IMG/VR virus record: IMGVR_UViG_3300032116_000235
Location: 1-57,782 of that record
From: a virus
Strand: one strand, 5' to 3'
Length of the DNA stretch: 57,782 nt
Shown: positions 9,201 through 27,454 of the stretch, one piece after another
How the letters are laid out: every line of letters begins with the position of its first letter
Numbering within the stretch: position 1 is the stretch's first letter
The notes under the pieces: generated by a model
Databases searched by the model: none
Seen by the model: the letters and a program-made list of their open reading frames with translations, nothing else
What the model was told of the DNA's origin: nothing
Program-made: the position numbers and the translations under genes

Positions 9201-10032
9201 TGGCGTTGATTACAAAATTCGCATTTTTGGAGATGCCGTCAAAGTTTACGATGCGACAACGGGGAATTTGATTGTATTGAATTCTCCCGGAACAGGGGAA
9301 TTATCTTTGGATGTTGAGAGAGTGATTCGCCCATTGCCTTCAACAAGTATTCTGTGTGAAAAAGCACTATACGAAAACGGGCAATCGGTAAAAGTGAGAG
9401 CCGTAAATGGAGACACTCTTCCAGAAGGTCTTCAGCCAGAATTTTCATATTATGTTCGCCGTATTTCTGAAAATTATATTGAGCTTTATCAAACGGCAGA
9501 ACAAGCGCGAGGAACAGGGACAACTGGAAGGATAGAATATCTTTCTCCGGGAAATTCTGTTGAATCACAATTTTACATTGATGCTATTGATGATGAAGTT
9601 TTGGTGAAAACAATTCATCAGATTGAGAAACCTTTGACTGACGGATTTGTTTCTCTTTACGCATGGGATTTTGCCCGTTCAAATGATTTAACACTGGTTG
9701 GGCAATATCATCCTTCCGAGGTTAATCCGCAGTATCGCAGAATCCGCATCGGGCAATCTTGCGCTTGGGTTCGGTTGGCTTATCGGATGTCGCCTCCGTT
9801 CATCACTTCAAAATACGACTACATTCCTATTGAGCATGAACGGGCAATCATCGCGGCAATTCATGCTGTTGATATGGAAGACAAAGATTTTGCAGACCAA
9901 TCGGCGCGATATTGGGGTATTGCTTTCAATTATCTCCGGAACCAACAAGAATACATTGATGGTCACGCAATGGTTCCTCCGCAAATTAACAATGTCACTT
10001 ACGGAGACGGAACGGATTGGGTTATTAGCTGA
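6289..10032 (+). CDS. Large adaptor-like tail protein with a long beta-rich insertion
   Basis: The 1247-aa protein begins with a helical segment (FEECAEILGTTNSEKVFRKI) and ends with another (about 1180-1230, EHERAIIAAIHAVDMEDKDF then YLRNQQEYIDG). Such helices are typical of adaptor (T7 gp11-like) proteins that sit under the portal. Between them are about 900 residues of beta-rich sequence. These include at least four copies of a GxGYxxxPxVxI motif (GNGYSTVPGV, GSGYTSPPAI, NNYRQAPQV, GTGYTSPPSV) and several DxLPxPLVxGxxYxV motifs. It directly precedes the nozzle-like gene, overlapping by one base, matching the usual adaptor-nozzle order. The adaptor role is inferred; structural protein is firm. 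Confidence 0.6.
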   Translation: MFVSQIFEECAEILGTTNSEKVFRKISQAVQTLMESGHWSHSTAEIDICTGWDGQSVTLPRGVDVPLAVNVDGSPVYFRNRLFQYHVNKGGMFNPVGWAWDDRGYTPTMMEIRQPSQLVAIAETDNDVGKQIRVIGINGNNVPLRSQLENGTGVDGLLVPIHSQKDFPFGTIIPDDQTVEIRLVSIDPISKFTPDNGVPHQLTSGQGVNISPQSGVIPPPLYNGQVAYVGVLDALTIELFKDQNNAKNGNFPIEMESILGSGLIKIKDSKPSQVVTAIRMDSAVPVAITTGNPIAFPDTGVILPVPLKKKVTYFANALSDTDLNIFESFEDAQNNINPIYCSTMGSPFSVDIRKEILPETKLTFAIQHYFKQGDQVQVYTAGGVLPNPLISNQNYFVNVVDSFTITIHETQADANASNPTNYINPIKLIDAGSGANFVVKLLSSTFRSGETSQITAAGLNISAPTGAGANYQAVVTGSVRVVQVTAQGNGYSTVPGVTFSEPPDPPIGSGQQAETATGYAIINTISTKLEQIIITNPGSGYTSPPAITIDPPTGASPAQATASATLQTSFVSYFRKISGGNNYRQAPQVQIAGGGGSGATAQAVVNNSIINLNSISVVGTTATATTASPHGFSVGSVVTLENVSPTTPFNGDKTVLSVPLQTQNIFSITRILTTATVTMTGNHNYSTGQIVTIAGTTEPQYLGPYAITVINSTQFTYTVTGNPITPAGGAAKTASIPSPSGATFTFTVPSGTTSATPNTGTVFSGEVVALNIITSGTGYTSPPSVILTPSTGVFVEFTSTGTLPSPLVAGTAYRAEAPLDTAAGVFTVRNADFSKINITGGGSGTFYTVLSRTFGVDFTDRWLGDFSNITTGQGIYFGTDFILPTTSPAIDGSTQFFLDVISPTVARIRNSLSVYLQVISFGTGQSYFGIRRQVTVQTPENTIEPDSILYLQDDQIVKFSTSGGMPAPLVAGVDYKIRIFGDAVKVYDATTGNLIVLNSPGTGELSLDVERVIRPLPSTSILCEKALYENGQSVKVRAVNGDTLPEGLQPEFSYYVRRISENYIELYQTAEQARGTGTTGRIEYLSPGNSVESQFYIDAIDDEVLVKTIHQIEKPLTDGFVSLYAWDFARSNDLTLVGQYHPSEVNPQYRRIRIGQSCAWVRLAYRMSPPFITSKYDYIPIEHERAIIAAIHAVDMEDKDFADQSARYWGIAFNYLRNQQEYIDGHAMVPPQINNVTYGDGTDWVIS

Positions 10033-12155
10033 TGAAATCGCCTCAAATCACTTCTGGCAGACTCGTCAAAGCGACAAGCGGATGGTTTGCTGGCGTAAAT
10101 TCTATTAGGAATCCTTGGGCATTGCCGGAAAATCAATTCAAATGGGGCGTCAATGTTCAAGTTCGCGGCGGAATTGTTCAAACTCGTCCGGGAAATGCGA
10201 TGCGCCTTTCTTTGCCTCCGGGAAATTTTCAAGGAGGAGTTTTCTTCTCAGCCAATAAACAGAAAACTTCGCATTCAACGCAAACGATCGACGGAGAAAC
10301 GACTTTTTCTGCATCCACTATATTTGATGTGAATGGTGAAGGCGTAATTGCCCAAGAATTGAATTATGTTGTTTTTGCGGTTGATGGTTCTGTTTATTAC
10401 GCTCCTTTCCCGCTAACACAGCCTAAAAATTGGGCTGAATACAAACTCACGAACATAAAACTTGATCCGAATGTAGATCAGTTTGTTTTCACGACAGGAA
10501 CGCAATCGGCGAATATCTCGACCGGTAAAAACGAAATCGTAACTCCTTCTCATCGTGTAATTTTCATTCAAGACGGGATTTCTTCTCCCGCTTATTGGGA
10601 TGGCTCTGATAAGGTCGGTGCGCAATCTGATAAAATCCCGACTGGATATTGGATGGCATTTTCTGGAAACAGACTTTGGGTAGCAGATAAAAATATCGTT
10701 CTGGCTTCAGATTTGGGCGATCCTTTGTCATGGGAAGAGAGGAAATCAGGAACTGGGCGAGGGGACTTTGCATTCAGTCGGCCAATCACCGGAATGGTGA
10801 ATTATGTTGGTCAGGACACTTCAACCAGATTGATTGTTTTCACTGATCGCTCAACATTCTCGCTTGCCAGCGGTATTCTTGATAGGAGTCAATGGACTTC
10901 TACGGCTAATTTTCAAAACACGCTTTATCCGACTGTTGGTTGCGTTGCTGGGAAAAGCATAGCTTTTCAAGCTGGTCAAATGTGGTGGTATTCACAGGGC
11001 GGACTTGTTGCGGCGGACGTCGCGGCGGCATCATACCTTTCTTCGCAGGTTCTATTTAAGGATGTAGAAATGGCGCGGAGCAAGCAATACATGGCTTCCG
11101 ACATCACAAGAATCTGCGCGACATCTTTTGAGAACTATATTCTTGTCAGCATTCCTTATCTCGAAAAATTGAATAGCCAGACGATGGTTTTGGATTATGC
11201 GGCGGCATCCGAGTGGTCATCTCAAAGAATTCCTGCTTGGTGTGGCGTCTGGTCTGGCACTCGTCCTGTTGAATGGATTAGTGGTATTATTGACGGCCAA
11301 CAGCGATGTTTTCATTTCAGCGTTGATTACTCCGCAACATCTGATGGTTCATACAATCATCTTTGGGAATCTTTTGTTCCTCAACGCTACGATTCATATT
11401 TTGATATTCAGGCTGACGGAAGTTTAGTTGAGGCTCGAAATAGAATTTATTGCTCCATGGAAACCGCCATGCTTGGTGACGGAATGGATTACAAACAATT
11501 TATCTATTCTGAGGTTGAAGCGAAAGAAATCGGCGGGGAAGTGGATGTTTCAATAGCATTCAGAGGAAGCAAAGGCCAATATAAACAAATCTTGAGCCAA
11601 AAAGTTCTTGCCGTAACTGATGATTTCCAATGGATAAATACTCCGTATTCTGAAAAAATTGAAGATTTGGGGTATTTGAAAACTCAATATCGCAGATTTA
11701 TTACAGAATCAGCGCAACGAACAATTGACTACGAAACTTGTGAGAGCGATTTAACGATTGACATAGATAAAGCGTTTTCAATTTTGATTGAATGGTGCGG
11801 TCAGATGGGAATTGAAATTGTTCGCGTTTATATTGATCCATATCCGACTAAAGCTATTGGGGTTCCGCAAAGAAACGAAACGAAACATTGCGTTGTCGGT
11901 GATGGGGGAAGAAATTTCACAATAGAAAGCCTTCCGAGCGAATACGCTAAAGGAAACGGAGAGCAAAAAAGTTGGTATGCCAACGCATTCAAAACTGTTT
12001 ATATTGATTGCGGTTTGCAGTCTATCTCGGCAACAGCAGAAGCCTCTTATTTGTCGTATATCAGTTACACTCACGCCTTGGCAGAAGCCGAAATTTTAGC
12101 ATTGCAAGCCGCAAACTCAGCCGCTCAACAATTCGCTGTTGAAAACAACTGTTGA
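10032..12155 (+). CDS. Nozzle-like (tail tubular protein B-like) structural protein
   Basis: The 707-aa product opens with GWFAGVNSIRNPWALPENQF and GGIVQTRPGN. This is the pattern seen at the start of beta-propeller nozzle or tail tubular B proteins of short-tailed phages, which close the tail tip. The remainder is beta-rich with repeated tryptophans (PLSWEERKSG, WISGIIDGQQ), no membrane segment and no enzyme motif. The last 40 residues are an Ala-rich helix. Its position after the adaptor-like gene and before internal virion proteins supports the assignment. It overlaps the following gene by four bases. Confidence 0.6.
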   Translation: MKSPQITSGRLVKATSGWFAGVNSIRNPWALPENQFKWGVNVQVRGGIVQTRPGNAMRLSLPPGNFQGGVFFSANKQKTSHSTQTIDGETTFSASTIFDVNGEGVIAQELNYVVFAVDGSVYYAPFPLTQPKNWAEYKLTNIKLDPNVDQFVFTTGTQSANISTGKNEIVTPSHRVIFIQDGISSPAYWDGSDKVGAQSDKIPTGYWMAFSGNRLWVADKNIVLASDLGDPLSWEERKSGTGRGDFAFSRPITGMVNYVGQDTSTRLIVFTDRSTFSLASGILDRSQWTSTANFQNTLYPTVGCVAGKSIAFQAGQMWWYSQGGLVAADVAAASYLSSQVLFKDVEMARSKQYMASDITRICATSFENYILVSIPYLEKLNSQTMVLDYAAASEWSSQRIPAWCGVWSGTRPVEWISGIIDGQQRCFHFSVDYSATSDGSYNHLWESFVPQRYDSYFDIQADGSLVEARNRIYCSMETAMLGDGMDYKQFIYSEVEAKEIGGEVDVSIAFRGSKGQYKQILSQKVLAVTDDFQWINTPYSEKIEDLGYLKTQYRRFITESAQRTIDYETCESDLTIDIDKAFSILIEWCGQMGIEIVRVYIDPYPTKAIGVPQRNETKHCVVGDGGRNFTIESLPSEYAKGNGEQKSWYANAFKTVYIDCGLQSISATAEASYLSYISYTHALAEAEILALQAANSAAQQFAVENNC

Positions 12156-12811: not shown

Positions 12812-13678
12812 ATGGGAGGAAGCGCACCAGCACCAGTTCAATATAATACGGCGGCAATGTTACCTCCGCCAAACCCGCAAGGAACCTACGATATTTTAAA
12901 GGCAACAAGCAAACTTGGCGGGGACGCAATGGATTTGCACCGCAAAAATCTTGAACTTGCCTCTGCGACAACTCCAATTCGGATGGAATACAATCCAACC
13001 GAACTTTCCAAACAGACTGCAGAATTTGGCGTTGGCAATCTTCTCCGTGAACGCAATATTGAATCGTTCACTAATCCTGCGGCGGCAAGAATGCGTTTGA
13101 ATATTGGGCAACAGGTCGAGGAAGCAACTTCGCCTGACTTCATGAAATCTTTCATGGATCGTTATGCGAAAGAACGCGGAATTTCCACTATATCCGGTAG
13201 CGGCATTGATCCGAACAGCACTATTGGCCGATCCGCGATATTTGATGCGACCACCGAGGCCGGAAGAAAATTGATGCTTGACAATATCCAAGCTCGTCAA
13301 GGTTATCTTCAAGCAACTCCCGCTCCAATCGGCGGGATTGATCCGGGTCAGGCTATTTCAGCGCAGGAAGCCAACAGGGCGCAGAATATTGGCCAAATGA
13401 ACGCTTGGCAGGCTGGACAATTTCAGAATATTTTTGGGATGGGTCAAGGATACTCAGATTTCGTCAATAAAATGATGGGCGAAACGCTTTCAGCCAACCA
13501 AGCAGAACAAGCAAATTTGAGGCAATATCAAGAAAAATTAATCAATGATTTGGTTGGCCAAGCGAACGCTGAGAATCAAATGAGGGCTGGGGCGGCACAA
13601 GGGAATCAAGCGATGACTGGCGCGCTGGCAGGAGCCGGAATTGGCGCGGTTGGCTTGATTGCGGCGGCAATGATTTAA
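12812..13678 (+). CDS. Internal virion protein candidate (MGGS start, Ala/Gln-rich)
   Basis: I chose the ATG at 12812 because AGGAG lies about ten bases upstream, and because the N-terminus MGGSAPAPVQ matches the MGGS and MGGG starts of proteins at 14800 and 15367. The 288-aa protein is rich in Ala, Gln and Asn, mostly helical (RAQNIGQMNAWQAGQFQNIF). It ends in a glycine-zipper-like hydrophobic segment (about 269-288, GALAGAGIGAVGLIAAAM) that could insert into a membrane. This suits an ejected internal virion protein that helps form a channel through the cell envelope. The function is inferred from composition and neighbours. Confidence 0.6.
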   Translation: MGGSAPAPVQYNTAAMLPPPNPQGTYDILKATSKLGGDAMDLHRKNLELASATTPIRMEYNPTELSKQTAEFGVGNLLRERNIESFTNPAAARMRLNIGQQVEEATSPDFMKSFMDRYAKERGISTISGSGIDPNSTIGRSAIFDATTEAGRKLMLDNIQARQGYLQATPAPIGGIDPGQAISAQEANRAQNIGQMNAWQAGQFQNIFGMGQGYSDFVNKMMGETLSANQAEQANLRQYQEKLINDLVGQANAENQMRAGAAQGNQAMTGALAGAGIGAVGLIAAAMI

Positions 13679-13679: not shown

Positions 13680-14645
13680 ATGGAAAACCTAATAAATAAG
13701 ACAGTAGAATACATAAAATTGTGGAATCAAAATTGGCCTCGTTCGGTCGTGTTTTGGTCAGGCGGCAAGGATTCAACAGCGTTGTTGCATCTTATCAAAT
13801 TCCGCGCAGGGCTGGACATTCCTGTTGTTCAGTTTCGTGAACCTAAATTCCGTGAGCGTTACGCTTATAGCGATAAATTGATTAAAGACTGGAAACTAGA
13901 AGTTCACGATTACCCTCCTTTGCGTGTTGCTTTGGCTGATGGGCCTGATGTCAATACTGGAGAGGTTCGTTTTGACCTGTTGAAATACTTTCAATGGGGG
14001 CAGAAATGCATGGTGATGAGTCTTGGGACAGAACGCCCGAAAGAAGGCGAAGATTTCCTTTGCGGTTTGAATGATTTTTTGTTTCGCCCTACGGGAACCT
14101 TCAACTGGCCATGGGGCGCAGTTTGGATTGGAACGAAAGACACGGACACAGACCTCATCAAAGGTCAAGTTGCCGTGAAATCTCACATTCGCTACGCAGA
14201 CGGGTCGCCTGTGAGCTTGTATCCCCTCCGAGACTGGACTGATGAGGATATTTACAATTACTTGGAGCTTTCAGGTGTTGAGCCTGACCAAACTCGTTAT
14301 ATCAAAACTGACGGGAAATGGGGTAACAATCCTGATAAAAGTCTGAACGCTGATTTTTATCCCGTCTGTTTGAATTGCGTTGATCGCCACCAAGGGCAAT
14401 ATGTTGACTGCCCAAAACTGAAAGCCAAAATCAGCAATATCAGTCATCTTGCGCCTTACGAGGACATCGTGATTGATGATCTTGGGTTCCGTCCGGTAGA
14501 TTGGAAGAAAAATAAATCAATATGTATGACTGTGAAGCCTGCGGAGCCTGTTGCTCATTCAAATGGAGTTGGCCAGTCCTCAAGCGAGACCGCTCAGACG
14601 CAACCGGAATTCCGCGCAACTGGATTCGCGCAGACTACCCGCTAA
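13680..14645 (+). CDS. PP-loop ATP pyrophosphatase, PAPS reductase/DndC-like family
   Basis: The 321-aa protein has the PP-loop SGGKDS at residues 27-32, which binds ATP and releases pyrophosphate in PAPS reductase and related enzymes such as DndC. A later LYPLRDWTDEDIYNYL helix is typical of this family. A cysteine group, PVCLNC...YVDC (about 230-245), could bind an iron-sulfur cluster. The substrate is unknown: sulfate reduction, a thio-modification or an adenylyl-activated step are all possible. After DWKKNK (about residue 278) the sequence becomes low-complexity (SSSETAQTQPEFRATG) and overlaps the YkgJ-like gene in another frame. The C-terminal 40 residues may therefore be a recent frameshift or read-through extension. 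Confidence 0.75.
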   Translation: MENLINKTVEYIKLWNQNWPRSVVFWSGGKDSTALLHLIKFRAGLDIPVVQFREPKFRERYAYSDKLIKDWKLEVHDYPPLRVALADGPDVNTGEVRFDLLKYFQWGQKCMVMSLGTERPKEGEDFLCGLNDFLFRPTGTFNWPWGAVWIGTKDTDTDLIKGQVAVKSHIRYADGSPVSLYPLRDWTDEDIYNYLELSGVEPDQTRYIKTDGKWGNNPDKSLNADFYPVCLNCVDRHQGQYVDCPKLKAKISNISHLAPYEDIVIDDLGFRPVDWKKNKSICMTVKPAEPVAHSNGVGQSSSETAQTQPEFRATGFAQTTR

Positions 14646-14797
14646 TGAAAACAGAAAACAACAGATGCGTTGCTTTGGAAGGCCAAGTTGGGGTTTCTGT
14701 GAAGTGTTCTGTTTATAATTGCAGGCCGGATGCGTGTAGGAAATTTACTCCGGGATCGGCGTTGTGTATCGAAGCAAGAAATAAAATAGGACTATAA
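14522..14797 (+). CDS. YkgJ-family cysteine-cluster protein
   Basis: The 91-aa product starts MYDCEACGACC, the hallmark CxxCxxCC of the YkgJ/UPF0153 family of putative zinc or iron-sulfur binding proteins. Further cysteines follow at CSVYNCRPDACRKF and CIEARN. The family function is not settled. Its first 124 bases overlap the end of the PP-loop ATPase gene in a different frame. The conserved motif lies inside the overlap, so this gene, rather than the tail of the upstream one, is the selected frame there. The pair may work together, since several PP-loop enzymes need a metal cluster partner. Confidence 0.7.
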   Translation: MYDCEACGACCSFKWSWPVLKRDRSDATGIPRNWIRADYPLMKTENNRCVALEGQVGVSVKCSVYNCRPDACRKFTPGSALCIEARNKIGL

Positions 14798-14799: not shown

Positions 14800-15348
14800 A
14801 TGGGCGGAAGTCAATTTGGAAAAACATTCGGAAGGGTAACAACAAAAATTGTTGATCCTTTCGGAATCGGTAAAACTAAATTTGGGAAAACAGTAATGAA
14901 AGTTATTGATCCATTAAATATAATGGACCCGCTCAATGTTCTTCCGGGGAAAGGTGAAAAATGGGGAACATTAGATAAAAATTATGGCGGTGCCGCAAGA
15001 GGGTGGCTTGGGTTAGACAAAAAAAGCGGCGGAGGGTCTTACCAGCCGAGAGATTATTCTTCTATTCAAAAAATGGTCGCAAATAATCCTGCTGGACAAA
15101 TGTCTGGAGATTTGATTTTGCAAAAACAAATGACAGATCAGGCGTTGGCTTCACAGCAAGCCGCAAATTTGCAAGCGGCAAACGCACGCCAACAACAAAA
15201 TATCAATACTGCGATGCAAAATTCTAAACAAAATCTGAATAATTCTTTGATGAGAACTCCGGTTCCATCTACATTTTCAGCAATCACACCAGCATCTACA
15301 AATCAATTCAAACTTCCGAATGTTGCTGGTTTGACATTCGGAAAATAA
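14800..15348 (+). CDS. Internal virion protein candidate 2 (MGGS start, shared C-terminal peptide)
   Basis: The 182-aa protein begins MGGSQFGKTFGR and contains short repeats (KIVDPFGIGKTKFGK, KVIDPLNIMDPLN). It continues with a Gln/Ala-rich helical region (about 105-150) and ends NQFKLPNVAGLTFGK. Nearly the same end occurs in the next two proteins. It starts two bases after the YkgJ-like gene. The composition, glycine-rich start and position before the giant ejected protein suggest an internal virion or ejection protein. No known domain is visible. Confidence 0.55.
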   Translation: MGGSQFGKTFGRVTTKIVDPFGIGKTKFGKTVMKVIDPLNIMDPLNVLPGKGEKWGTLDKNYGGAARGWLGLDKKSGGGSYQPRDYSSIQKMVANNPAGQMSGDLILQKQMTDQALASQQAANLQAANARQQQNINTAMQNSKQNLNNSLMRTPVPSTFSAITPASTNQFKLPNVAGLTFGK

Positions 15349-15366
15349 ACAAGAAAGAACAAAAAT

Positions 15367-15939
15367 ATGGGAGGCGGAGGACAACAAGGACCAAGCAAAA
15401 GTCAAATAAAGGCTCAGCAAGCGCACGAAGCCGCTATGTTGGATATGCAAATGAAACTTGCTCAACAACAAATGTCGCAACAGCAGGAGATGCTTCGTTA
15501 TCAGATGGAGCAGGCCGAAAAACAGCGATTAGCGGCAGAAGAAGCGGCAAAACAGGCCGCAATTCAAACGCAATCTGCAACCGCGCAATCAGCCGCTCAA
15601 CAAAACGCGCAAGATGTCGCGCAAAAACTTGAAGGCATGAATACGATGCAGAATCTTTCTGATCAATCTGCTCTCGGAGATTATCAGAAGGCAATGACTA
15701 CTGGCGCGGAGAACATGACTGGCGGTTACGATATGGGTAATGCGAAAGCGTCCGCTATGGAACAACTCGGAGTTGCTTCTGGCGCTCTTCCTCAAACTCC
15801 ATCAAATCTTGCTGGTAGTATCAACGCGATAAATCCAGCAATGACAACTGCGGCAAATGCGCAGGCTGGCGGAACGACAAAAACGCAAAATCAATTCAAC
15901 ATGCCAAACACAAGCGGACTAACTTTCGGAGGAACATAA
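15367..15939 (+). CDS. Internal virion protein candidate 3 (Gln-rich coiled coil, shared C-terminal peptide)
   Basis: The 190-aa product starts MGGGGQQGPSKSQIKAQQ. It continues as a long Gln/Met/Ala/Glu-rich helix (about 15-85, with LAQQQMSQQQEMLRYQMEQ) that likely forms a coiled coil. The second half is Ala/Gly/Thr-rich and ends NQFNMPNTSGLTFGGT, the peptide shared with its neighbours at 14800 and 15941. Proteins of this kind are packed in the head of short-tailed phages and ejected first. No enzyme motif. The next gene begins one base after the stop. Confidence 0.55.
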   Translation: MGGGGQQGPSKSQIKAQQAHEAAMLDMQMKLAQQQMSQQQEMLRYQMEQAEKQRLAAEEAAKQAAIQTQSATAQSAAQQNAQDVAQKLEGMNTMQNLSDQSALGDYQKAMTTGAENMTGGYDMGNAKASAMEQLGVASGALPQTPSNLAGSINAINPAMTTAANAQAGGTTKTQNQFNMPNTSGLTFGGT

Positions 15940-15940
15940 T

Positions 15941-16702
15941 ATGGCTGATATACTTGAAGAAATTGAAGATGCTGGAAGATCAACGGATAATGTTGTCGGG
16001 CATTTGACAGTTGGGGAAATTGTCATTCCCATGCAACTCGCAGAAATTCCAGAAGTAAAAACTGCTATCGAGGAAATTTTTGCGGCATACGAAGTAGATC
16101 TTGATGAATTTACTGTTGGGAATGAAGCAAATAAAATTAATCCAGAAACTGGTTACCCTGAATTTTTCGTTGGGCGAGCTTTAAGAGCTATCGGGAATTT
16201 TTTCACTGGTGGAGATAAGAAGAAAGATAAAGATAATAAGAATAATAATTCGCAAAATAGTTCTCAATCGACATATAATCAAAATGCAAAAGCATTTGAT
16301 GATGCTATGGCCGCACAGAAAAAAAAGGATGAAGAAGCTAGGCTGCGAAGAGAGAAAGAGACAAAAGATCGCGCTATTGGAGCTGAATCTGCAAGAATAA
16401 GAGGTCTTGCGCTTGATAATCAGGCGCAAATTGGCGAACAGTTATCACAAACGCTTGCAACGCCAACGCAACAAAACGCAACGGCTATCCAAGCTGGATA
16501 TACACCGAGCGGATATAATGCAGGCAAGCCGACAAAAACTGTTCCCGGAAACGCTGGTGGCCCTATGCCGACAGAAACTGCTTCCGCGATGCCCGCCGCA
16601 TTGATCGCTCAAAAAATCAATCAAGATAGCGGCGGAACAAATCAACAACAGAATAGATTCAATATACCAAAAACCGAGGGATTAGTTTTCGGAGGAACTT
16701 AA
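15941..16702 (+). CDS. Internal virion protein candidate 4 (shared C-terminal peptide)
   Basis: The 253-aa protein has an ordered N-terminal part (about 1-90: DNVVGHLTVGEIVIPMQLAE, then AAYEVDLDEFTVGNEANKIN), close to sequences seen in phage structural proteins. A lysine/asparagine-rich linker (KKKDKDNKNNN) and a charged helix follow. The Gln/Thr/Pro-rich tail ends NRFNIPKTEGLVFGGT. That tail matches the C-terminal peptide of the two upstream proteins. It is likely carried in the virion, but there is no direct evidence for where. Confidence 0.55.
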   Translation: MADILEEIEDAGRSTDNVVGHLTVGEIVIPMQLAEIPEVKTAIEEIFAAYEVDLDEFTVGNEANKINPETGYPEFFVGRALRAIGNFFTGGDKKKDKDNKNNNSQNSSQSTYNQNAKAFDDAMAAQKKKDEEARLRREKETKDRAIGAESARIRGLALDNQAQIGEQLSQTLATPTQQNATAIQAGYTPSGYNAGKPTKTVPGNAGGPMPTETASAMPAALIAQKINQDSGGTNQQQNRFNIPKTEGLVFGGT

Positions 16703-16705
16703 TTT

Positions 16706-18367
16706 ATGGCAAACGCTGGCTTCACATTCACACCAAAACCTCAAGCCGCTTTAGCAAACCTGAATCCGATTCAGTTCGGATCAGCTTTGCAGTTTAGAGC
16801 GGACGAGCCGATGAAATTCCTTGAACAGCGACCAGAGGTCGTGATGGAAGGTTTTCTCAAAGGCAGGCAACAAATGGTTGAGGACATTTCAAAAGGAGCG
16901 TTGTCAGCAATAGGAAGCGTAACAGGTGCATTCAAAGATGCTCGCGCTGAAAAATTAGCTACTACAAAATTGGAAGAGGAACGCCAGCACGAAAAAGACA
17001 TTGCCAATATTCGGGCATCCGCAAAAACTCCATACGACGAGTATTATCAGAGTTTGAAAACTCAACTTCAAGAAAGTAAACTTGAAGAGGTTAAAAATCG
17101 TTTAGATAATACTGTTCCAACGCCTAAAAGGGAAAGAGGGCATTGGATGAAAGGAGATATGTTTGAGGCGCAAAATCCTGATCTTCCAGAGGAAGAGCCG
17201 ACTCCCCGCAGGGATCAATCTTCTTTAAATTTGACTTCCCCGATTCCTTCAACTGCCAGCGCAGAACAACCTAAAATCTTTTCGAGCTTGAGCGATATTT
17301 CCACTATTCCGGCTGAAACTGGCGGATATAGTTTGGCGGATATCAGAACTCCAAAAACTTCTGATCTGATATATCCAGCAAGCGAAGGTCAGGTTGTTTT
17401 CGGAGGCCAGACTTTAGATTTGATGCCAGTCAGCGGAGCGGAAGCCAAACCAGCCCCGAAACCTCTGGCCGATACAAGAACTCCGGAAGAAAAAAGGCTA
17501 TCTCCTGCGCCAGCAGAACTTCTCGATACAAAGCCGCCAGAAGCGCAAACCGAGCGCAGGAAACCAAGTCAGTATGAGGTTGAACAATACTACGCTGGAG
17601 AGCCTTTTGAGAGCATTGCTGACGCGAATTATGCCAAGCGTCAGATGATGAAATATGGTTATGCCGCAAAGGTGACACCAGTAGAAGACCCGACTACAAA
17701 ACAGCGGATGTATTATGTGGAATTTGATGAGAAAACACCGGAGCAACCGCCGGAAGGAACAGTTCTGAAAGAAATCAAAGATACAGACGGGAAAATCACA
17801 AAAACATTTGAGCCTGTGATGAAGCCAGAGCAAAAACTTCCGATGCTCAAAACCGCAGAAGCGCAATTAGACGCAATGATTGATGCGGCAAATCAAATTG
17901 AACAAATCGCAAGTGAAGGTAGGTTGCCTGAATTTGGAAGAGCTTCAGCTTGGATTAAAAATTTGCCAATTACAACCGACGCCTCAAGAGTGCGCCCATT
18001 CATTCGCACGCTCCAAGCAAATACCGCTTTCAAAACGATCATGGATATGAAGAAAGCAACGGGATCAGCATTGGGGGGGTCAACAACTGACAAAGACATG
18101 CAACTTTTGATGGATGTCATCGGTTCTCTTGATGCTGATAATTTAGATTCAGATTATATTTTGCCGACTTTGCAAAGAATTAAAAAAACGGCAATGGACG
18201 CGAAACAAGATCTTACTGTTGAAAAACAAAAAGTTGTTGCAGGAGCGGAAGGAATACCAATAATTACTAATAAAGAAGAACATGATAAATTGCGTCCCGG
18301 ATCTTTTTATTATGCCGATGTCGATGGCGTAATGAAGCGTTTGCAAAAACCTGAAAAATCTAAATAA
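16706..18367 (+). CDS. Internal virion protein candidate 5, 553 aa
   Basis: The N-terminus is polar, followed by a helical part (about 40-130). A Pro/Ser/Thr-rich middle with many short PxPxR-type stretches comes next, then a folded C-terminal half (about 380-553). Residues 223-234 (YPASEGQVVFGG) resemble the C-terminal peptide of the three upstream proteins. There is no transmembrane segment or enzyme motif. It is immediately upstream of the giant polyvalent gene, with no intergenic bases, so co-packaging or joint ejection is plausible. Family not recognised. Confidence 0.55.
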   Translation: MANAGFTFTPKPQAALANLNPIQFGSALQFRADEPMKFLEQRPEVVMEGFLKGRQQMVEDISKGALSAIGSVTGAFKDARAEKLATTKLEEERQHEKDIANIRASAKTPYDEYYQSLKTQLQESKLEEVKNRLDNTVPTPKRERGHWMKGDMFEAQNPDLPEEEPTPRRDQSSLNLTSPIPSTASAEQPKIFSSLSDISTIPAETGGYSLADIRTPKTSDLIYPASEGQVVFGGQTLDLMPVSGAEAKPAPKPLADTRTPEEKRLSPAPAELLDTKPPEAQTERRKPSQYEVEQYYAGEPFESIADANYAKRQMMKYGYAAKVTPVEDPTTKQRMYYVEFDEKTPEQPPEGTVLKEIKDTDGKITKTFEPVMKPEQKLPMLKTAEAQLDAMIDAANQIEQIASEGRLPEFGRASAWIKNLPITTDASRVRPFIRTLQANTAFKTIMDMKKATGSALGGSTTDKDMQLLMDVIGSLDADNLDSDYILPTLQRIKKTAMDAKQDLTVEKQKVVAGAEGIPIITNKEEHDKLRPGSFYYADVDGVMKRLQKPEKSK

Positions 18368-21300
18368 ATGGCCGCTTGGACACCTCCGAAAGAAGATGAG
18401 ATTGGAAAACCAATTTCTGAAACTGAAACACCAACTTGGAAGCCGCCAGAGACAGATATTGTCCAAAATGAATGGGCTCCTCCGCGAGAGGATGATCCAG
18501 ATGATCCAATCAACATCAAAGACCCGTGGAAGATTTCTCAATTAAAGGAATCTGGTCAGCCTGTTTCCGATGAGCAAGAGCGCATTCTTTTTGATTACGA
18601 GGATGAAAAACCGCTAACGCAAAAGGCAGGAGATTTCATTGGTGGAGCATTAGAAAAAGCTCCAGAAGCGTTTGCTGATATTGCTGTTGGCGGAGCGCAA
18701 CTCGGGTATAAAGGCGTATTATTGCCATTGAACGAAATGTTCCTTGGCTTTGCGATGTATACTCCCGAACAACGGGCAAAAATCCTCCGTGATCGTGACC
18801 TGACATATAAAGCATTAGCTTCTGGCGGAGCGCAGGGATTAGATGAAGCCATGGAGGCTGGAACTCGCCTCGCAACTCTCGGTTCATCTATTACCGATAA
18901 GCTCCAAGGAATGCCGAAAGAAGAACGATTCCGCCGTTATATGACGCGGGAAACTATGCGTAAATTCGCGCAAGCGGCAAGAGCTGAAACGCCAGACACG
19001 CTTGCTCGGTTGACGGCTGAAAGTCCTTTGATTCGTGGCATCGTGAAAACGATGGTTGATATGGAGGGCGGAGACCCTAAAGCGCAAGAAGAAGCGGTTA
19101 AAGAATACGAAAGACTGGTCAAAGAAAGCGGAATGACCAAAGAGGAGTTGGATGAGTTTGCCAAGGTTGTTAATTTTGGTGATGTCAGTATGCCAACCGC
19201 TCTTCCCGGAGCGAACACGCTGACCAAAGCAGTTTCAAAGCCGATTGTTGCCGCAACGCAAAAAGGCGGAGAATTGGCATTGAAAGGTCTGAATCTCGGC
19301 TCAAGAGCTACTGGCTGGACGGCTGGGAAAGTGATTGGCGCAGGAGAATACATTCAGAAAAAGGCGCGCGATATTGGTGAATATGCCGTCAATGATCCCG
19401 ATACTTTTCTAAAAGGTGCCGTAAACACGGCAATGTTGCCTGTGATGACAGTTGTCAAGCCGACAAAAACAGTCGCAGATGTCATTACCGACATTACCCG
19501 CCAAGTTGATGTTGGCGGAGCGGCAGGGCGCAGGGGAATGTTTGAAAGAGCAGGCAGGGATGTCCGCTCGACCGCAACAACGCAAAAACTATTCGGGCCA
19601 GAAGGCAAAGGCGGAGTTGGCAGGGCGAAATTAGCTGATTGGGCTGTTCGTCAGTCTAACGCAATGATTCAGCCCGGAGTCAATGCAGGCGCATTGAATG
19701 TTTTGATGGGTTTGCCGGATGCTGAAACAGCCGAACAGGCTGGACAGCAGTTCGGCACCGGATTTGGTATTGGCGCATATTCTGGAAGCAGGGCGGAATC
19801 TCGCGTTCTTGGAATGGTTGATCCGAGAACGACAATGGCGCAGAAAGTAACAAATCTCGTCACCCCTGATCCAACTCAACTTCGCAGAGATCAAGACGCC
19901 GACATTAAACGATTCATGGCAACCGCATCGCCAGACTTGCGTCAGCAAATGCAAGACCTCGCAAGCATTGATAAACGCAAAGCGGCACTCGATCAGGCCA
20001 TCGCGGAAGCAACCGATGTTCAAAGCAGAACAATCGACAAAGAAACTTCAGATTTTCTGCAAATACAGATTGACGGCTACAACAAGCAAAAAGCCGCATT
20101 GGATAAAGCCACGCCGGAAACTCAACGCGAATATGACCGATTGATTCAGTTGACTACGCTGGATGCTTTGGATCAAGCGCAAGCGGTCGGAACTGCCGCA
20201 GGATTGCGCGGAATGAATCTTGTTTTCCTTGATCCTGCGAATGCTGAACAATTTTACCGGAATCTTTACGGGCAGACGCTTGTTGACGCTGAAAAGAACA
20301 AAGCAATTCTCACGGGAAGAGCGTTAACACCAGAAGAGCAAAACACCCTACGCGAAGCCAACGAGACTTTGGCGGCATTTGCGCAGAGAGTCGATAACGC
20401 CCAAAATACGCGAGGTTTTGCGTTGAGTGAGCCAATCACCGATGCCAACGACCCCGAATATGTCCCGCCGCATTTGCGGATGCAAAATCAGAAAGGCGCA
20501 ACCGCTGTTATCAATACAGATTTGGTGAAACACCTAACCGAACGCGGATTCAATGTTCGGCACACAATCCAGCACGAAGTTCAACACGCTCTTGAAAACT
20601 TCAAAGAGGTTCAAGATTTACTCTCTCCGGTTAGGAAATATCTGTTCGATCAGAAAGTTCAGAATGATGACGGAACATTCACCGTAGTTAGCGAAGGAGC
20701 TTACAATGATCAGAAGCTAGATGAATACGCGATGCAATATGCTCAGAAGTTTTCTCCTGCCGATGGCGGTGCTGGATTCTTCGCGCAGTTCGGAGGAGAT
20801 ATTCAGAAACAACGCGACTATATCAAGCGTGAAATCCTCGCAGAAGTAGCAACCGCTGGCGGCGAATATGAAGGCGGAAGCCGAGCGGCATTGGACGATG
20901 TTGGCAGGAATTTCGTTGATTGGCTTGAAGTCACTACCCGCGATGGATTCCTCAAGAAAATGAAAGAAGGACTGCGGAAAGTCGGCGTTGTTGTAGATAA
21001 CACCGGAGGCTACACAACGCTATTTGACGCGAAGATCACGCCAGAAGTTGTCGCCACGATTCGCCAGTATCAGCGTGGCTTGCGTGATATGAATGGCGCG
21101 TTGACATACAACGCAAAACGCGAGGCCGAGGAGCCAGATATTCCATTAGTCAAAATTCTCGGGAATCGTGCATTACAAGAGAAATACAAAAATGCTGATT
21201 TCTTTGAAAAAGAGCAAATCGTTCGCGCAACGCAACCGGACGGATCGCAAACTGAAATCGTTGTTCCAGAAGGCGCGAATCTTGACTCGTTCACAGGAAT

Positions 21301-24300
21301 TTATCGTGTTGAGAACGGGCAATTAGTCGATGAGGACGGAACTCCGATGCAACTCGCGCCGGAAATCAATGTTCAAGCGATGCCGAACGGAACGAAATTT
21401 GAGGTAGATACCCGCATTGCGAGGAAGCCGGATGGTTCTCCGATAATTATCCAGAACCGAGAGATGAAGCGCAGGGCGATTGATCGCACACAAATGCTCG
21501 TCAACGCGATTGAATCCGCTCCGAAGGATGATTCTCCGTTCCGCATGATTGATGTCGGCAAAGGCGATTACCGAGGCGCAATGTCGCCAAGCCAAGTTGA
21601 GGCATTATTGAAGATTCCGAATACGGTTCTTTCTCCGAATTTGAAGCGCATGATCGTTTTCTTTAATGAGATTTTGCGCCGTGGTGATGGAACTCGCGTC
21701 ATGATGGAATATCAAGCCGCATTGCTGAATGGAAAATATAAGGCAATCGCCCCAAGACTACGCGACGAGGTTCCCATTGGCTTCAAGATTACGAAAGACG
21801 GCAACTTCACAGTTACTACGATGTCGGTCAGCCGCATGTATGATAAAATGAATGCTTGGGCGGCAAAGAAACCGCTAAACTTGAGTCTTTGGGGTGGAGA
21901 TACAGGGAAATTTTGGGATTCCGTTATCAAAGTATTGGACAATCACGCAAGAGGAGAAAAAGGAGAAGTTGGACTTCACCCTGATCCTTATATCGCGCTT
22001 CGGATGAAATATAAGGTGAACGATCTATTCAATGTCTATAATGCTGAAACGAAAGCCGCAAATCCTGACCGAACAACATTACCACGCGAAAAAGGCAAAG
22101 ACCCTGTTGATGTTATCGTTCGTTCGCGCCGATTGGATCGGATCAACAATTTCAGCGAAATCAGCGCACAGAAATTGCCGATGAACTACGGCAAGCTTCT
22201 GGAAAACTATCTGCCAGCGAATAATCCGCTTGCTCGTCCGCAGAGTCCAGACGAAATGATGATGAATTTGGATGGTAGCGTGACTGCTACCCGCATCAGA
22301 AATGCCATTGCCAGCGGAAATGTGGAGCAACTGGAGTCCGAATTGCGAGCGAGTGATGACTTGCTCCCGTTTGAATCATTATATGTGTCACAGGGCGAAA
22401 CTGGAGAGCCGCAGATTCAGGTTGTTTCCATGCTGGAACCCGGAATTGAACCGAGTTTAGAACCATCTGAAATTCCCCGCGATATTGATGCTGAAACAGA
22501 AGCGGAAATCGCAAAACTTGACGCCGAGCAAGACATGGTTGAACAGGCTCAACAGGGCCAACTGGAACAGCAACAGGGCCAACAGGGCCAACAGGTGCCA
22601 CGGGTTCGCGCCGAATTTATTCCGCCAGTTCAAAAGCAGAATACATATTATAGCGCACGACAACCGGGAACAGAGCAATACGCAGGATCGTTTTTCACGC
22701 CTGACAGAGAAGCGGCAAATCAATTCGGTGAGAATTTCGGGCTTCCAGTTTCTGAATTTCAAATAAATCCGAAAAATATCGCATCAGATATTGATGTTGA
22801 AATTGTTGCGAATGAACTCGGAATTTACAAAAAAGGAACACCTGTTGATCAGTATTTAATTCAAGGGCCAGATGCAATTTTTGAAGAATCATCAGAAGTT
22901 GTTCGCAGATTACGGAAACAAGGATTCGACAGCGTTGAATTGTTTGACGGAATCTCAAAAGAACCAAGTCTTGTGGTTTTGAATCCAGAAATAATTCAAA
23001 AGAACGCGATAGCTGATTCCGGAATCTCTTACTTGCCAGCAGAAGACCCATTTTATTCTCGTTTACAGCGCGGAATTCAAGAAAGTCAGCAAGCCACATA
23101 TTCACCAGATCAGGCAAAGGCTCTTGCACGGAAATCCACAAACGCAGAGGAATTGAAATGGTCTGGAATTGAAAATGCCATTGATTCTATTGCCGAGGAA
23201 AACAACGGCAAAGTTCCTAAACAAGCATTGCTGGATTACATGGCAAATGAGGGGCAAGTGAAGTTTGAAGAAACCAATTTAGCAGAACTTAATCGCTCAG
23301 AGGAAATTGCTAAAAAATACGGAATTACTTTAGAAATAACGCCAGAGGAAGTTGTCGCGTTTGACAAAGATGATGAAAGTTTGGAGTGGGATGAATTTCC
23401 AGAAGAACTAAAGCAGGAATTATTGCGAACTCAGAATATGCAGGCATCTAAATATGCAAAATATCAACTTCCCGGAGGTGAAAATTATCGTGAGATTGTT
23501 TTGACAATGCCTGAAGGGAATAGGGGGAAGTGGAATGATTTTGATGCTTGGTTAAAAGGCCGTGTTGGGTCAAAACGCGCAAAAGTTTTGACAGAAAAAG
23601 AACGGAATGATTTCAAAAAAGAATGGAGAGATTTAAATCCAGCAGAAAATGATTACACCTCTTCTCACTATTCAAACATCCCAAACTATGTCGCTCACAT
23701 TCGTTTGAATGAACGGAAAGACGCCGAAGGAAAAGAAGGATTGTTCATTGAGGAAATTCAATCTGATAGGCATCAGCAGGGAAGGAAATACGGATACGAT
23801 TCAGATATTCCAAAATTTGATCCAACTAAATTAAAAGTTGAGAAAGCTCCAGCAGGGGGATACACGGCATACAATGTTTATTATGATGGCGTTCTTGTTG
23901 CGCAACCACCGAGTTTTGCCGCCAAAAATGAAAATGATGCCGCAAGAATAGGAAGGGAAACAGTTGAGCGTGGCTTGACTCTGAACAGACAAGGGAAAAC
24001 GCCAATTCCTGATGCGCCATTCCGGAAAGATTGGCCGCTCCAAATGTTCAAGCGTGCTTTGCGTGATGCTGTTGCTGGCGGAAAAGAATGGATCGGCTGG
24101 ACAGACGGAGCAACGCAAGCAGATCGATATGATTTGAGTAAACAGGTTGATGCAATTCAAATAGAAAAAGTTAATGAAAATTCATTCAACTTATACGCGA
24201 AACAAATAGGAATCAGTTCTTTTTCTAATTTGGGATATGGCATTCCAGCTTCTCAAATTGAAAACTATGTTGGAAAAGAAATTGCCAAAAAAGCTGATCT

Positions 24301-27300
24301 TGAAAATTTGAGCGCAGGAGAATCATCAACAATATCTGGAGTTGATTTAAAAGTCGGCGGCGAAGGGATGAAAGGATTCTACGACAACATGCTTCCGAAA
24401 GAAATCGGCAAGTATGTTGGTAAGATGGGCGGCAAGGTTGAGAAAAATAAAATCGAAGCGCAACCTTCTGATGTCGCGCCAGAATTAAATGAATTTACTG
24501 ATATAGATTTTGACATTTTTGGCGGTGCTGAAGGTTTCCCAAGCGGAGATAATCCTTTGATTGGAGAAGTTCGTTTACATCACATCGATACTGATAAGAA
24601 TTTCACTATCGTTGCCGATCAGTCAGGGTTCCAAATTTTTGATGAAAATGGAGAATATTACGGATTGCAGAAAGAATTTCAAACAGCAGAAGAAGCGAGA
24701 AATTGGTTCAATGAGAATTATCAGGATGGATCATTCCATATAGAATTGAATAATCAAAATCGCGGAGAGTATTTTACAGAGCCTCAACAACAAGATTTTG
24801 ATTACTGGAAAGTTGATATTACTCCAGAAATGGCCGCGACGGTGAGCAAAGGCCAGCCGCAATATCTCCCTTATGTTCCTTACAGCCTGCCACGCGATCC
24901 GCGCAAAATCATGGCAGACTTCTACCTCCTAACAACAACAGGAGACAAAGCCGGATACTTCGGTCAAAATTGGGAGAAAATCAAAGGCGGTATGCCGCCA
25001 ACGAGAGCCGGATTGCGTTACGGAGAATACGGAGAAAATCTGGAAGAAGCGGTTGGCAAGTTGACCGAGCAAATGAAACGCCACATGTCAGATTCATTGC
25101 TGTTCTCAATCTCTGCCGAATTGCGTCATGCTTTGGAGCGTAGCCAGCCAGAGGAATTGATGAACAATCCGTTCATGAAAGCGTATCGTGAATATCTGGA
25201 GTCATATTCGCGCTTAAAAGATGTTCGGATGACTCCGCTTATTGAAAAGAATCTTCAAGGCATATACCCTGAAGGCAAACGCGCACGGATTACGAAAGGA
25301 AGCCCGCAAGAATATCAGATTTCAAACAAAGCGGTCAGAAAAGCGTTGGAAGAAACGGGAACAAGTCTTCAAGACTTTTCAGAAATCGCGGAGAATATTT
25401 TCCGCAAGGGAAGATGGGCGACATCCTATGGCGGTCAGCCGTGGGGAAATATCGCCGAAGGGCTTCGAATGATAGTCAACGCTGAAACAACCGGAGACAT
25501 GGTGAAGGCTATGGATAATGCCTATGATCTCCAGCACAACACCGCGACTGTATTCAACAAGATCAAAAAATACCAGCGCGAAGGAGGCTATAAGTGGCTT
25601 CAAGACATGCTGGATTTCAAGTATCACGCAATGACTCCCCGCGAGTTGGTTCCGCTGGCCAGTTCAGCCGCAAAGCGTATCGCCGCCCCTGCTTTGCTGG
25701 ACATTGGTGATCCCGCGATGGACAAGAGCCGAGAGAACGCTGTTAGCGCATCCAGCGAAGAACTTGTTTCTGGTTTGGAATCGGCTATCGGAAGGCTAAA
25801 AGGCAATCAGGAGAATGTCTATAATGACATTTGGGTAAAAGCGCAGAAAGGCTCCGGAAAAGACATCAATGAGGAATTGTTCAAATGGCTGAGAGCGCAA
25901 ATGCCAGCGCGGAAAGACGAGTTGGAAGCGGTTGGTGTGAATAAAGACATAATTCGCTATGCAAGGCTATTGCTGGCTGAAAAAATGGCACCGAAGATGG
26001 AAGTTCCGTCAGACATCAAAGAAATGGTTGCGCAGTCGATTCGTGAGCAGAAACAAAAAGCGCAGGAAAAACCTGCTCCTAAAACTGAAATCGCTCAACA
26101 AACATCGTTGAAGTGGGTAAATAAAGTATACAAAGGCGATGAATACGAAATTTTTGAAAATGGCGACCAACCAATATCAACGGAAACAACTGTTTATATT
26201 GACGGAAAACCAATAAAAGCAGGATTTGTTGCAGATGGCAATGGGTTGTATTTAATATTGAATAATGGAGAAGAATACGGAGTCCCATTTGATCCTGAAT
26301 CCGCAAAAAACGCTAAAGAATCGTTTGAAATGGAATACTCTGGGAAATCGAATGATATTGCAAAAGAGCTTAAAAATTTTCACGGAGTAAATCTCTCATT
26401 CGTTGATCCGGCAAAAGCCAAACAGACAGGGAAAACGACATTTGAACCTTCTCCTAAAACTGAAATCGCAAAACAACCAAAATTAGATTGGCAAGACAAC
26501 ATCCCAAATAGCGACGATGCATACGCCGACTATCCTAATGGGGATAAACCATCAGGTGCTACTGTAAATGTTTGGGTTGATGGTTCTCCAAAAAAAGCGT
26601 TTATCGTCGTGCATCATGACGGAACATCCATCATTATTGACAATATAAGATATGCTGTTCCTTGGGGATCATTGGACGAGTCTGTTGCAGACTCTAAAAA
26701 AGGATTAGCTGATCAAATATCCGGAAAATATAACGACATTGTTTCTGACCTAAAAGAATACGAAGATCTTAATCTCTCATTCGTTGATCCAGCGAAAACA
26801 AAACAGGCAGATAAAACGCCAGACATTGAAGATTTCTGGCCGAAGGCTCTTTCATTCATGTCTCTTCCTGAAATTGAACATGTAAAACAAACAATTAAGG
26901 ATTCTCTTGAAGCAGGGAAAAATTACAATAATTGGATTGATGAACTGGAAATGTATGGGCAAAAAGCAAAAAACCTATACTCTCCCGACAGCCAAAAAGA
27001 GTTGAAGAAATTATTTGAGGAGGAGGCGAAGAAGCTTCATAAATCTCTAAATCCAAGACTCAGCATTAAAAAAGCCGAAAGTTATTTCAATAAATCGATC
27101 ACTGATTACGCGAACTCTTATTGGAAAGAGGTTATTGATCAAAACAAAAATTACGCGGATGAGGTCGGAGTTTTAGTAGAATCTTTATTAGCTCAACACT
27201 CAAATAAACCAGAATTTTCAGCAAAAAGGAAAACTATCTCTATCGGGCGAAGAACCTATACTGCTTATACTCCCGTCAAAGGCGGCGATGTTTATATTTT

Positions 27301-27454
27301 GTATGGCACCCCGAACAATTCAGGTGAAGATTTGAATTATAAATGGGATGGTGCCGCAACATTCACAACTAAAAATAAAATGAAAGATGATGTTTTGGAT
27401 GATCTTGAATGGTGGTTCAAAGGGGAAATTGACTACTACGATCCGCAAATCTGA
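18368..27454 (+). CDS. Giant polyvalent protein (Zn-peptidase, ART-like and LPD-type domains), probably injected with the genome
   Basis: This single 3028-aa frame holds several modules. Residues 1-560 are Gly/Ala-rich and helical with no clear domain. HEVQH at 736-740 is a metallopeptidase HExxH motif inside HTIQHEVQHALENF. A Gln-rich linker lies near 1391-1410. About 1425-1548 (YYSARQPG, FFTPDREAANQF, GFDSVELFDG) resembles the ADP-ribosyltransferase-like domains of polyvalent proteins. About 1792-2040 (LFIEEIQSD, then TDGATQADRYDLSKQ and YVGKEIAKKA) matches a domain common in large phage polyvalent proteins. The C-terminus has a tandem repeat (about 2570-2815). Polyvalent proteins are known or proposed to enter the cell with DNA and counter host defence. 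Which activities remain is unknown. Confidence 0.8.
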   Translation: MAAWTPPKEDEIGKPISETETPTWKPPETDIVQNEWAPPREDDPDDPINIKDPWKISQLKESGQPVSDEQERILFDYEDEKPLTQKAGDFIGGALEKAPEAFADIAVGGAQLGYKGVLLPLNEMFLGFAMYTPEQRAKILRDRDLTYKALASGGAQGLDEAMEAGTRLATLGSSITDKLQGMPKEERFRRYMTRETMRKFAQAARAETPDTLARLTAESPLIRGIVKTMVDMEGGDPKAQEEAVKEYERLVKESGMTKEELDEFAKVVNFGDVSMPTALPGANTLTKAVSKPIVAATQKGGELALKGLNLGSRATGWTAGKVIGAGEYIQKKARDIGEYAVNDPDTFLKGAVNTAMLPVMTVVKPTKTVADVITDITRQVDVGGAAGRRGMFERAGRDVRSTATTQKLFGPEGKGGVGRAKLADWAVRQSNAMIQPGVNAGALNVLMGLPDAETAEQAGQQFGTGFGIGAYSGSRAESRVLGMVDPRTTMAQKVTNLVTPDPTQLRRDQDADIKRFMATASPDLRQQMQDLASIDKRKAALDQAIAEATDVQSRTIDKETSDFLQIQIDGYNKQKAALDKATPETQREYDRLIQLTTLDALDQAQAVGTAAGLRGMNLVFLDPANAEQFYRNLYGQTLVDAEKNKAILTGRALTPEEQNTLREANETLAAFAQRVDNAQNTRGFALSEPITDANDPEYVPPHLRMQNQKGATAVINTDLVKHLTERGFNVRHTIQHEVQHALENFKEVQDLLSPVRKYLFDQKVQNDDGTFTVVSEGAYNDQKLDEYAMQYAQKFSPADGGAGFFAQFGGDIQKQRDYIKREILAEVATAGGEYEGGSRAALDDVGRNFVDWLEVTTRDGFLKKMKEGLRKVGVVVDNTGGYTTLFDAKITPEVVATIRQYQRGLRDMNGALTYNAKREAEEPDIPLVKILGNRALQEKYKNADFFEKEQIVRATQPDGSQTEIVVPEGANLDSFTGIYRVENGQLVDEDGTPMQLAPEINVQAMPNGTKFEVDTRIARKPDGSPIIIQNREMKRRAIDRTQMLVNAIESAPKDDSPFRMIDVGKGDYRGAMSPSQVEALLKIPNTVLSPNLKRMIVFFNEILRRGDGTRVMMEYQAALLNGKYKAIAPRLRDEVPIGFKITKDGNFTVTTMSVSRMYDKMNAWAAKKPLNLSLWGGDTGKFWDSVIKVLDNHARGEKGEVGLHPDPYIALRMKYKVNDLFNVYNAETKAANPDRTTLPREKGKDPVDVIVRSRRLDRINNFSEISAQKLPMNYGKLLENYLPANNPLARPQSPDEMMMNLDGSVTATRIRNAIASGNVEQLESELRASDDLLPFESLYVSQGETGEPQIQVVSMLEPGIEPSLEPSEIPRDIDAETEAEIAKLDAEQDMVEQAQQGQLEQQQGQQGQQVPRVRAEFIPPVQKQNTYYSARQPGTEQYAGSFFTPDREAANQFGENFGLPVSEFQINPKNIASDIDVEIVANELGIYKKGTPVDQYLIQGPDAIFEESSEVVRRLRKQGFDSVELFDGISKEPSLVVLNPEIIQKNAIADSGISYLPAEDPFYSRLQRGIQESQQATYSPDQAKALARKSTNAEELKWSGIENAIDSIAEENNGKVPKQALLDYMANEGQVKFEETNLAELNRSEEIAKKYGITLEITPEEVVAFDKDDESLEWDEFPEELKQELLRTQNMQASKYAKYQLPGGENYREIVLTMPEGNRGKWNDFDAWLKGRVGSKRAKVLTEKERNDFKKEWRDLNPAENDYTSSHYSNIPNYVAHIRLNERKDAEGKEGLFIEEIQSDRHQQGRKYGYDSDIPKFDPTKLKVEKAPAGGYTAYNVYYDGVLVAQPPSFAAKNENDAARIGRETVERGLTLNRQGKTPIPDAPFRKDWPLQMFKRALRDAVAGGKEWIGWTDGATQADRYDLSKQVDAIQIEKVNENSFNLYAKQIGISSFSNLGYGIPASQIENYVGKEIAKKADLENLSAGESSTISGVDLKVGGEGMKGFYDNMLPKEIGKYVGKMGGKVEKNKIEAQPSDVAPELNEFTDIDFDIFGGAEGFPSGDNPLIGEVRLHHIDTDKNFTIVADQSGFQIFDENGEYYGLQKEFQTAEEARNWFNENYQDGSFHIELNNQNRGEYFTEPQQQDFDYWKVDITPEMAATVSKGQPQYLPYVPYSLPRDPRKIMADFYLLTTTGDKAGYFGQNWEKIKGGMPPTRAGLRYGEYGENLEEAVGKLTEQMKRHMSDSLLFSISAELRHALERSQPEELMNNPFMKAYREYLESYSRLKDVRMTPLIEKNLQGIYPEGKRARITKGSPQEYQISNKAVRKALEETGTSLQDFSEIAENIFRKGRWATSYGGQPWGNIAEGLRMIVNAETTGDMVKAMDNAYDLQHNTATVFNKIKKYQREGGYKWLQDMLDFKYHAMTPRELVPLASSAAKRIAAPALLDIGDPAMDKSRENAVSASSEELVSGLESAIGRLKGNQENVYNDIWVKAQKGSGKDINEELFKWLRAQMPARKDELEAVGVNKDIIRYARLLLAEKMAPKMEVPSDIKEMVAQSIREQKQKAQEKPAPKTEIAQQTSLKWVNKVYKGDEYEIFENGDQPISTETTVYIDGKPIKAGFVADGNGLYLILNNGEEYGVPFDPESAKNAKESFEMEYSGKSNDIAKELKNFHGVNLSFVDPAKAKQTGKTTFEPSPKTEIAKQPKLDWQDNIPNSDDAYADYPNGDKPSGATVNVWVDGSPKKAFIVVHHDGTSIIIDNIRYAVPWGSLDESVADSKKGLADQISGKYNDIVSDLKEYEDLNLSFVDPAKTKQADKTPDIEDFWPKALSFMSLPEIEHVKQTIKDSLEAGKNYNNWIDELEMYGQKAKNLYSPDSQKELKKLFEEEAKKLHKSLNPRLSIKKAESYFNKSITDYANSYWKEVIDQNKNYADEVGVLVESLLAQHSNKPEFSAKRKTISIGRRTYTAYTPVKGGDVYILYGTPNNSGEDLNYKWDGAATFTTKNKMKDDVLDDLEWWFKGEIDYYDPQI
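26075..26810 (+). repeat. Tandem ~125-residue duplication near the C-terminus of the polyvalent protein
   Basis: Two copies start at SPKTEIA or APKTEIA (about 26078 and 26453) and end at NLSFVDPAK (about 26391 and 26770). At DNA level the ends are nearly identical (CTCTCATTCGTTGATCC) while the middles have diverged. The duplication is therefore not recent, but its borders are conserved. Confidence 0.75.

Follow-up and report, generated by a model that had tools for sequence, protein, structure and literature searches.

The window, by which we mean the whole 57,782-nucleotide stretch of the IMG/VR virus record IMGVR_UViG_3300032116_000235 analyzed here, contains a cassette of genes that ends in a giant open reading frame (Table 1). 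Three consecutive small genes of this cassette encode proteins, here called A, B and C, whose translations all close on N-x-F-x-x-P-x3-G-L-x-F-G-[GK]. A preliminary description of this DNA had reported the same C-terminal peptide on three consecutive virion proteins, and the three endings agree letter for letter with those it quoted; the shared-tag observation holds, and is stronger than that description put it. The range that it assigned to the feature, 15301-17407, runs from the first tag through an internal copy in the next protein, D. Judged by gene position, A, B and C are probably internal virion proteins.

Table 1. Genes and tag copies in the window, with tag scores from the profile described in the text.
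Feature	Position	Strand	Remarks
Anchor gene for collecting relatives	10032..12155	+	weak match to PHROG 511 'internal virion protein', E 1.4e-5
Untagged helical protein (12812 family)	12812..13678	+	MGG start; C-terminus hydrophobic; resembles T7 gp14 in position only
Protein A	14800..15348	+	182 aa; MGG start, basic/hydrophobic 'DPLNIMDPLNVLP' in N-terminal half, linker, tag
C-terminal tag of A	15301..15345	+	NQFKLPNVAGLTFGK; profile score 38.3
Protein B	15367..15939	+	190 aa; MGG start, residues 11-112 predicted as a single long helix, then disordered tail and tag
C-terminal tag of B	15889..15936	+	NQFNMPNTSGLTFGGT; profile score 51.6
Protein C	15941..16702	+	253 aa; additional N-terminal domain (MADILEEIEDAGRSTDNVVGHLTVGEIVIP...), B-homologous region, tag
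C-terminal tag of C	16652..16699	+	NRFNIPKTEGLVFGGT; profile score 42.0
Protein D	16706-18367	+	directly after C; contains the internal copy below
Internal copy in D	17372..17407	+	YPASEGQVVFGG; not terminal
Giant protein	18368..27454	+	3028 aa; end of cassette; no Pfam match above cut-off
Putative portal	48010-50451		807 aa; label from size and order
Putative scaffold	51357-52628		label from size and order
Putative major capsid protein (MCP)	55840-57051		403 aa; label from size and order

Few of these genes are recognizable by family. Proteins A to D have no significant match in Pfam or PHROG, and tblastn with C, the anchor gene and the portal, MCP and terminase candidates against 50,697 phage records gave no match; a cultured relative of the clade is absent from the collection searched. 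Among the terminase, portal, MCP and scaffold candidates, the terminase alone is identified by family (PHROG 2, E 5.7e-9), and the putative portal, MCP and scaffold found no match in Pfam, PHROG or PDB. In a PDB profile search with family B, the matches were to penicillin-binding proteins at E>0.2 only, which we judged to be chance. The giant protein is, by its position and size, a probable internal or ejected protein; it carries a HEVQHALE motif (HExxH-like), and its identity in relatives is just 24-59%. The untagged 12812 family, whose AlphaFold model has a pLDDT of 51, occurs twice, side by side, in some of the relatives (L135, L141, L157, L143, L171). A PAPS-reductase-like gene and a gene for a CxxCxxCC metal-binding protein form a pair within the virion cassette (window 13680-14797), and the former is absent from several relatives. 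Farther along the window (45917-47457), genes for a TET/JBP-type 2OG oxygenase and a TET-associated glycosyltransferase are neighbors, with Pfam E-values of 8e-10 and 1e-12; these family matches point to probable hypermodification of the phage DNA with 5-hydroxymethyl and sugar.

To see how far the peptide extends beyond the window, we collected relatives via the neighboring gene at 10032-12155, so that the collection is independent of the tag itself. This anchor search returned 222 related IMG/VR stretches, of which 80 were fetched, and a second anchor query, taken from a divergent member, returned 39 loci. The C-terminal 16-mer is common to about 200 related uncultured phages, and in the collected loci it ends one to four of the ORFs immediately downstream of the anchor. 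In the first set, chosen without reference to the tag, all 30 of the 30 complete cassettes encode tagged proteins: one in 11 cassettes, two in 6, three in 10 and four in 3. In the divergent branch, the tag is found in every locus that extends at least ~4.2 kb beyond the anchor gene, while locus L250, which reaches 3.3 kb past it, shows only the degenerate ending NQGKQFGGY. Among the wider relatives the tag also closes proteins with other beginnings (MSWLSS, MYSPLK, MKYKVI, MADLFS and others). The search of other phages that the preliminary description had proposed thus finds the peptide in homologues, and the objection that it might be missing from them falls away.

The tag has a well-defined anatomy. 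Its consensus over the last ~16 residues is N-x-[FY]-x-[LM]-P-x3-G-[LI]-x-F-G-G-x-COOH. In an alignment of 66 non-redundant tagged proteins, conservation sets in abruptly at the Asn, 12 residues ahead of the second Phe: upstream columns carry less than 1 bit, and the eight conserved columns (N, F and P, then G and L, then F-G-G) carry 2.0-4.6 bits, with 2.5-4.6 bits for N, F, P and F-G-G. Every synonymous codon is in use at the P, G and L positions, indicating that selection acts on the peptide and that the three copies in the window are not a DNA repeat. In 175 of 183 tagged proteins, the stop comes exactly one residue after FGG. Ahead of the tag, the linker differs in length by ~20 residues and is probably disordered: the AlphaFold model of B has a helix at residues 11-112 and then mostly coil to the end, with a pLDDT of about 40-50 through the tag. 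An N-terminal MGG is found on nearly all cassette proteins, the untagged 12812 family included, and on 167 of the 183 tagged proteins; among the 389 ORFs of seven genomes, 24 start with MGG, and 21 of these lie within the cassette. This N-terminal MGG is possibly a second terminal signal.

In favor of a chance or low-complexity origin of the motif, Q, A, G and N are abundant in the tagged proteins. A DNA pattern in IUPAC code for F-x2-P-x3-G-[LF]-x-F-G-G-x-stop(TAA) has two matches in the window and none in 100 dinucleotide shuffles. It matches in 110 stretches of viral contigs (IMG/VR), versus 7 matches in 257 Gb of prokaryotic genomes. Six of these seven lie in frames of 0-74 residues, and no fewer than 6 are plainly noise; the remaining one (L196) ends a 311-residue frame with FGIPEPPGLDFGGS and is without any neighbor of the tag family. 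The viral matches, in contrast, nearly all close ORFs of about 130-410 residues beside the same neighbors, and the three viral loci without such neighbors are short, and their MCP (79-83% identity) places all of them in the same clade. A relaxed DNA pattern brought in further variants; among the matches listed, all good-scoring ones lie in ORFs of the tag clade, as judged by neighbors or body similarity, and the remainder are tiny out-of-frame ORFs. These counts already refute a chance or low-complexity origin, to which we assign a next to negligible probability.

We then evaluated specificity at the protein level with a profile built from 80 tags. At a score of at least 8, the profile recovers 280 ORF C-termini in the relatives and 0 shuffled C-termini. 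In a scan of seven genomes of ~60 kb each (5,049 frames of at least 40 codons), only cassette ORFs score above 0: each genome has 2-3 tagged ORFs and none outside the cassette, the lowest clear tag scoring 11.9 against a background below -4. A degenerate cassette C-terminus, NRFNITSQNLTYGGG (NLTYGGG), scores -4.0 owing to one missing residue. Tag-like segments within other proteins show no excess (10, versus 7 in shuffled sequences). The tag is conserved at the protein level, strictly C-terminal and confined to the cassette.

The internal copy in D does not belong to this feature. The motif that the preliminary description had pointed out inside the fourth protein is present, but its VVFGG is found in the two nearest relatives only and is missing from the other D homologs examined; we therefore dropped it as a tag copy. 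D also has a conserved segment at its N-terminus (window 16706-16800 and homologs), roughly [GY]-[YF]-x-F-x-P...L-x-G-L-x-P-L; the D homolog in L221 reads GFNFALPSLAGIT there, which is tag-like, but the profile score of 4.7 does not exceed that of shuffled controls (6.3).

Do the tagged proteins share anything besides their ends? We performed profile-profile comparisons (hhalign) of the three families with and without their tags. With tags removed, A scores 0.4% against B and 0.13% against C, whereas B and C score 97.5% over 111 body columns. With tags kept, A and B score 91.7%, and the 19 columns that align are those of the tag itself. By this comparison B and C are ancient paralogs, and A has, within detection limits, nothing but the tag in common with either. 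The preliminary description had spoken of three otherwise different proteins; this is borne out for A versus B and C, and does not hold for B versus C. The additional N-terminal domain of C (DNVVGHLTVGEIVIP...NPETGYPEFF, window 15941-16200) has no family match; it is found in the close relatives L001, L003 and L004 and is absent from others.

Because B and C are paralogous, part of the tag sharing is inheritance. Could it all be? The proteins would then be duplicates of one gene, with the C-terminus as its slowest-evolving part and no separate tag role. The B-C homology agrees with such an origin, as does the resemblance of the second- and third-slot tags of one phage, which are clearly more alike than chance (0/5000 permutations) and belong mostly to paralogs. 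Body homology, however, joins only B to C, and A to neither of them, although divergence of A beyond detection is possible. Moreover, within the A family N-terminal halves have been swapped while the C-terminal half and the tag were kept, and the abrupt start of conservation at the Asn is equally at odds with a slowly evolving tail. We consider inheritance alone quite unlikely. As far as the profiles can tell, the tag is portable, and is carried by two or more kinds of body that are unrelated to one another.

A short conserved C-terminus, a variable linker, fast-changing bodies and a single virion-module cassette together point to docking. We hold it reasonably probable that the tag is a short, uncleaved C-terminal docking peptide that recruits small cassette proteins to one conserved virion component; the virion location, the binding of the tag to a partner and the identity of that partner are what we infer here. 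Behind a helical or other body, the tag would hang on a flexible, probably disordered linker. Two aromatic anchors, the F residues at -10 and 0, would together with the P and the L-x-F-G-G end contact one conserved partner, for which the scaffold, the portal, the MCP or an internal core base, in virion or procapsid, are candidates. One to four small cassette proteins would in this way be brought to the same place during assembly.

A shared docking partner would be expected to be conserved. Across six genomes, identity is 81-93% for the putative MCP, 64-83% for the putative portal and 39-65% for the putative scaffold, while the A body has no match and the B body has 35-56% or none. Within one phage, the likeness of first- and second-slot tags exceeds chance only slightly (permutation p 0.046), and thus gives no strong evidence that the tags co-evolve with a receptor that itself changes. 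The tag is also not required by every cassette protein, since the 12812 family is untagged in the same cassette.

Two other binding arrangements could be imagined. In the first, the tagged proteins would bind one another, in a hetero-oligomer or an internal core ring, with no separate receptor. At least two tagged proteins are adjacent in most phages, and B, modeled as a long helix, is likely to oligomerize. However, 11 of the 30 unbiased cassettes encode a single tagged protein, so that pairing between different tagged proteins is not required, although homotypic pairing may occur; we regard a mutual interface as unlikely. In the second, the peptide would act after ejection by binding a host protein or membrane complex. 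The cassette does adjoin a giant, probably ejected, protein, and small helical or hydrophobic proteins are similar in kind to ejection proteins, but a target in hosts would be expected to differ between hosts, and the tag is little changed across a clade whose other genes fall to 25-60%. A host-directed signal is, in our estimate, very unlikely.

The docking reading can be set against known terminal signals. In phage T4, the capsid-targeting sequence (CTS), an N-terminal peptide of ~10 residues on several internal proteins, binds the scaffold core, is cleaved by the head protease and suffices to carry foreign proteins into the head (PMC9026906). The window tag resembles it as a terminal peptide common to several proteins, but all tags here are at the extreme C-terminus, and the two sequences are unrelated by eye. 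The preliminary description had named sorting, docking or processing as the role of the peptide. A conserved C-terminal peptide on unrelated bodies supports this in part, with sorting or docking as the best reading; processing, in which a protease would cut or recognize the peptide, is not supported. T4 internal proteins do lose terminal peptides (PMC9026906), but we found no prohead protease, nor any member of a head protease family, among the scanned structural-module proteins, many of which match nothing at all, and conservation continues to the last residues ahead of the stop, with the motif ending one residue short of it in nearly all proteins. A processing or turnover signal is highly improbable.

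Signals that target proteins to phage capsids are also known from phage P1, where the N-terminal 30 residues of the giant ejected protein DarB are enough to direct a reporter to the capsid (PMC9024508). The window too has a giant protein adjoining the cassette, but the P1 signal is N-terminal on one giant, whereas the tag is C-terminal on several small proteins, and no Pfam match links the window giant to Dar proteins. In phage P22, gp7, gp16 and gp20 are a small internal-protein set that co-assembles with the scaffold near the portal, and the ejection proteins are proposed to dock at the scaffold column's inner end (PMC12005531). The cassette likewise encodes a small set of proteins that, judged by gene position, are probably internal; searches of Pfam, PHROG and INPHARED gave no significant match that would place them among P22- or T7-type ejection proteins. 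To our knowledge, no common terminal peptide has been described for the P22 ejection proteins.

A likeness is also found outside phages. In family 1 encapsulins, cargo is loaded by C-terminal peptides with the consensus SDGSLGIGSLKRS (PMC8346489). As in the window, a short conserved C-terminal peptide follows a flexible linker on unrelated cargos (A and B align at the tag alone), and the encapsulin consensus and GLTFGG have, by eye only, an L-x-hydrophobic-G-small core in common. The encapsulin cargos, however, are enzymes in a cellular compartment, whereas the tag is on phage assembly proteins. The window shows a phage genome with a terminase rather than an encapsulin shell with a cargo enzyme, and A to D are without a Pfam domain. 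Encapsulin peptides bind the inner face of an HK97-fold shell protein; the putative MCP has no sequence match in PDB. The tag is like the T4 CTS or an encapsulin peptide in outline, and a member of none of the families compared here. Among the open-literature papers listed as containing GLTFGG, LTFGG, GLQFGG or GLKFGG we found no phage paper and no description of such a tag, which does not prove its absence.

As far as we know, how small internal phage proteins are chosen for packaging is understood for a few model phages only. We tentatively propose, as a possibility that goes further than docking itself, that one portable, uncleaved C-terminal address tag loads a changeable set of small proteins into the particle, with bodies freely swapped, duplicated or replaced while tag and receptor stay fixed. 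If this is true, encapsulin cargo peptides would have their viral counterpart in the tag. A tag of 16 residues, conserved throughout a large uncultured clade and marking the cargo set on its own, makes the choice of cargo directly testable by reporter fusion and receptor pull-down, and it could serve in engineered particles as a candidate loading peptide. In metagenomes, where most of the bodies defy annotation, it also offers a sequence handle for finding this clade's cargo genes.
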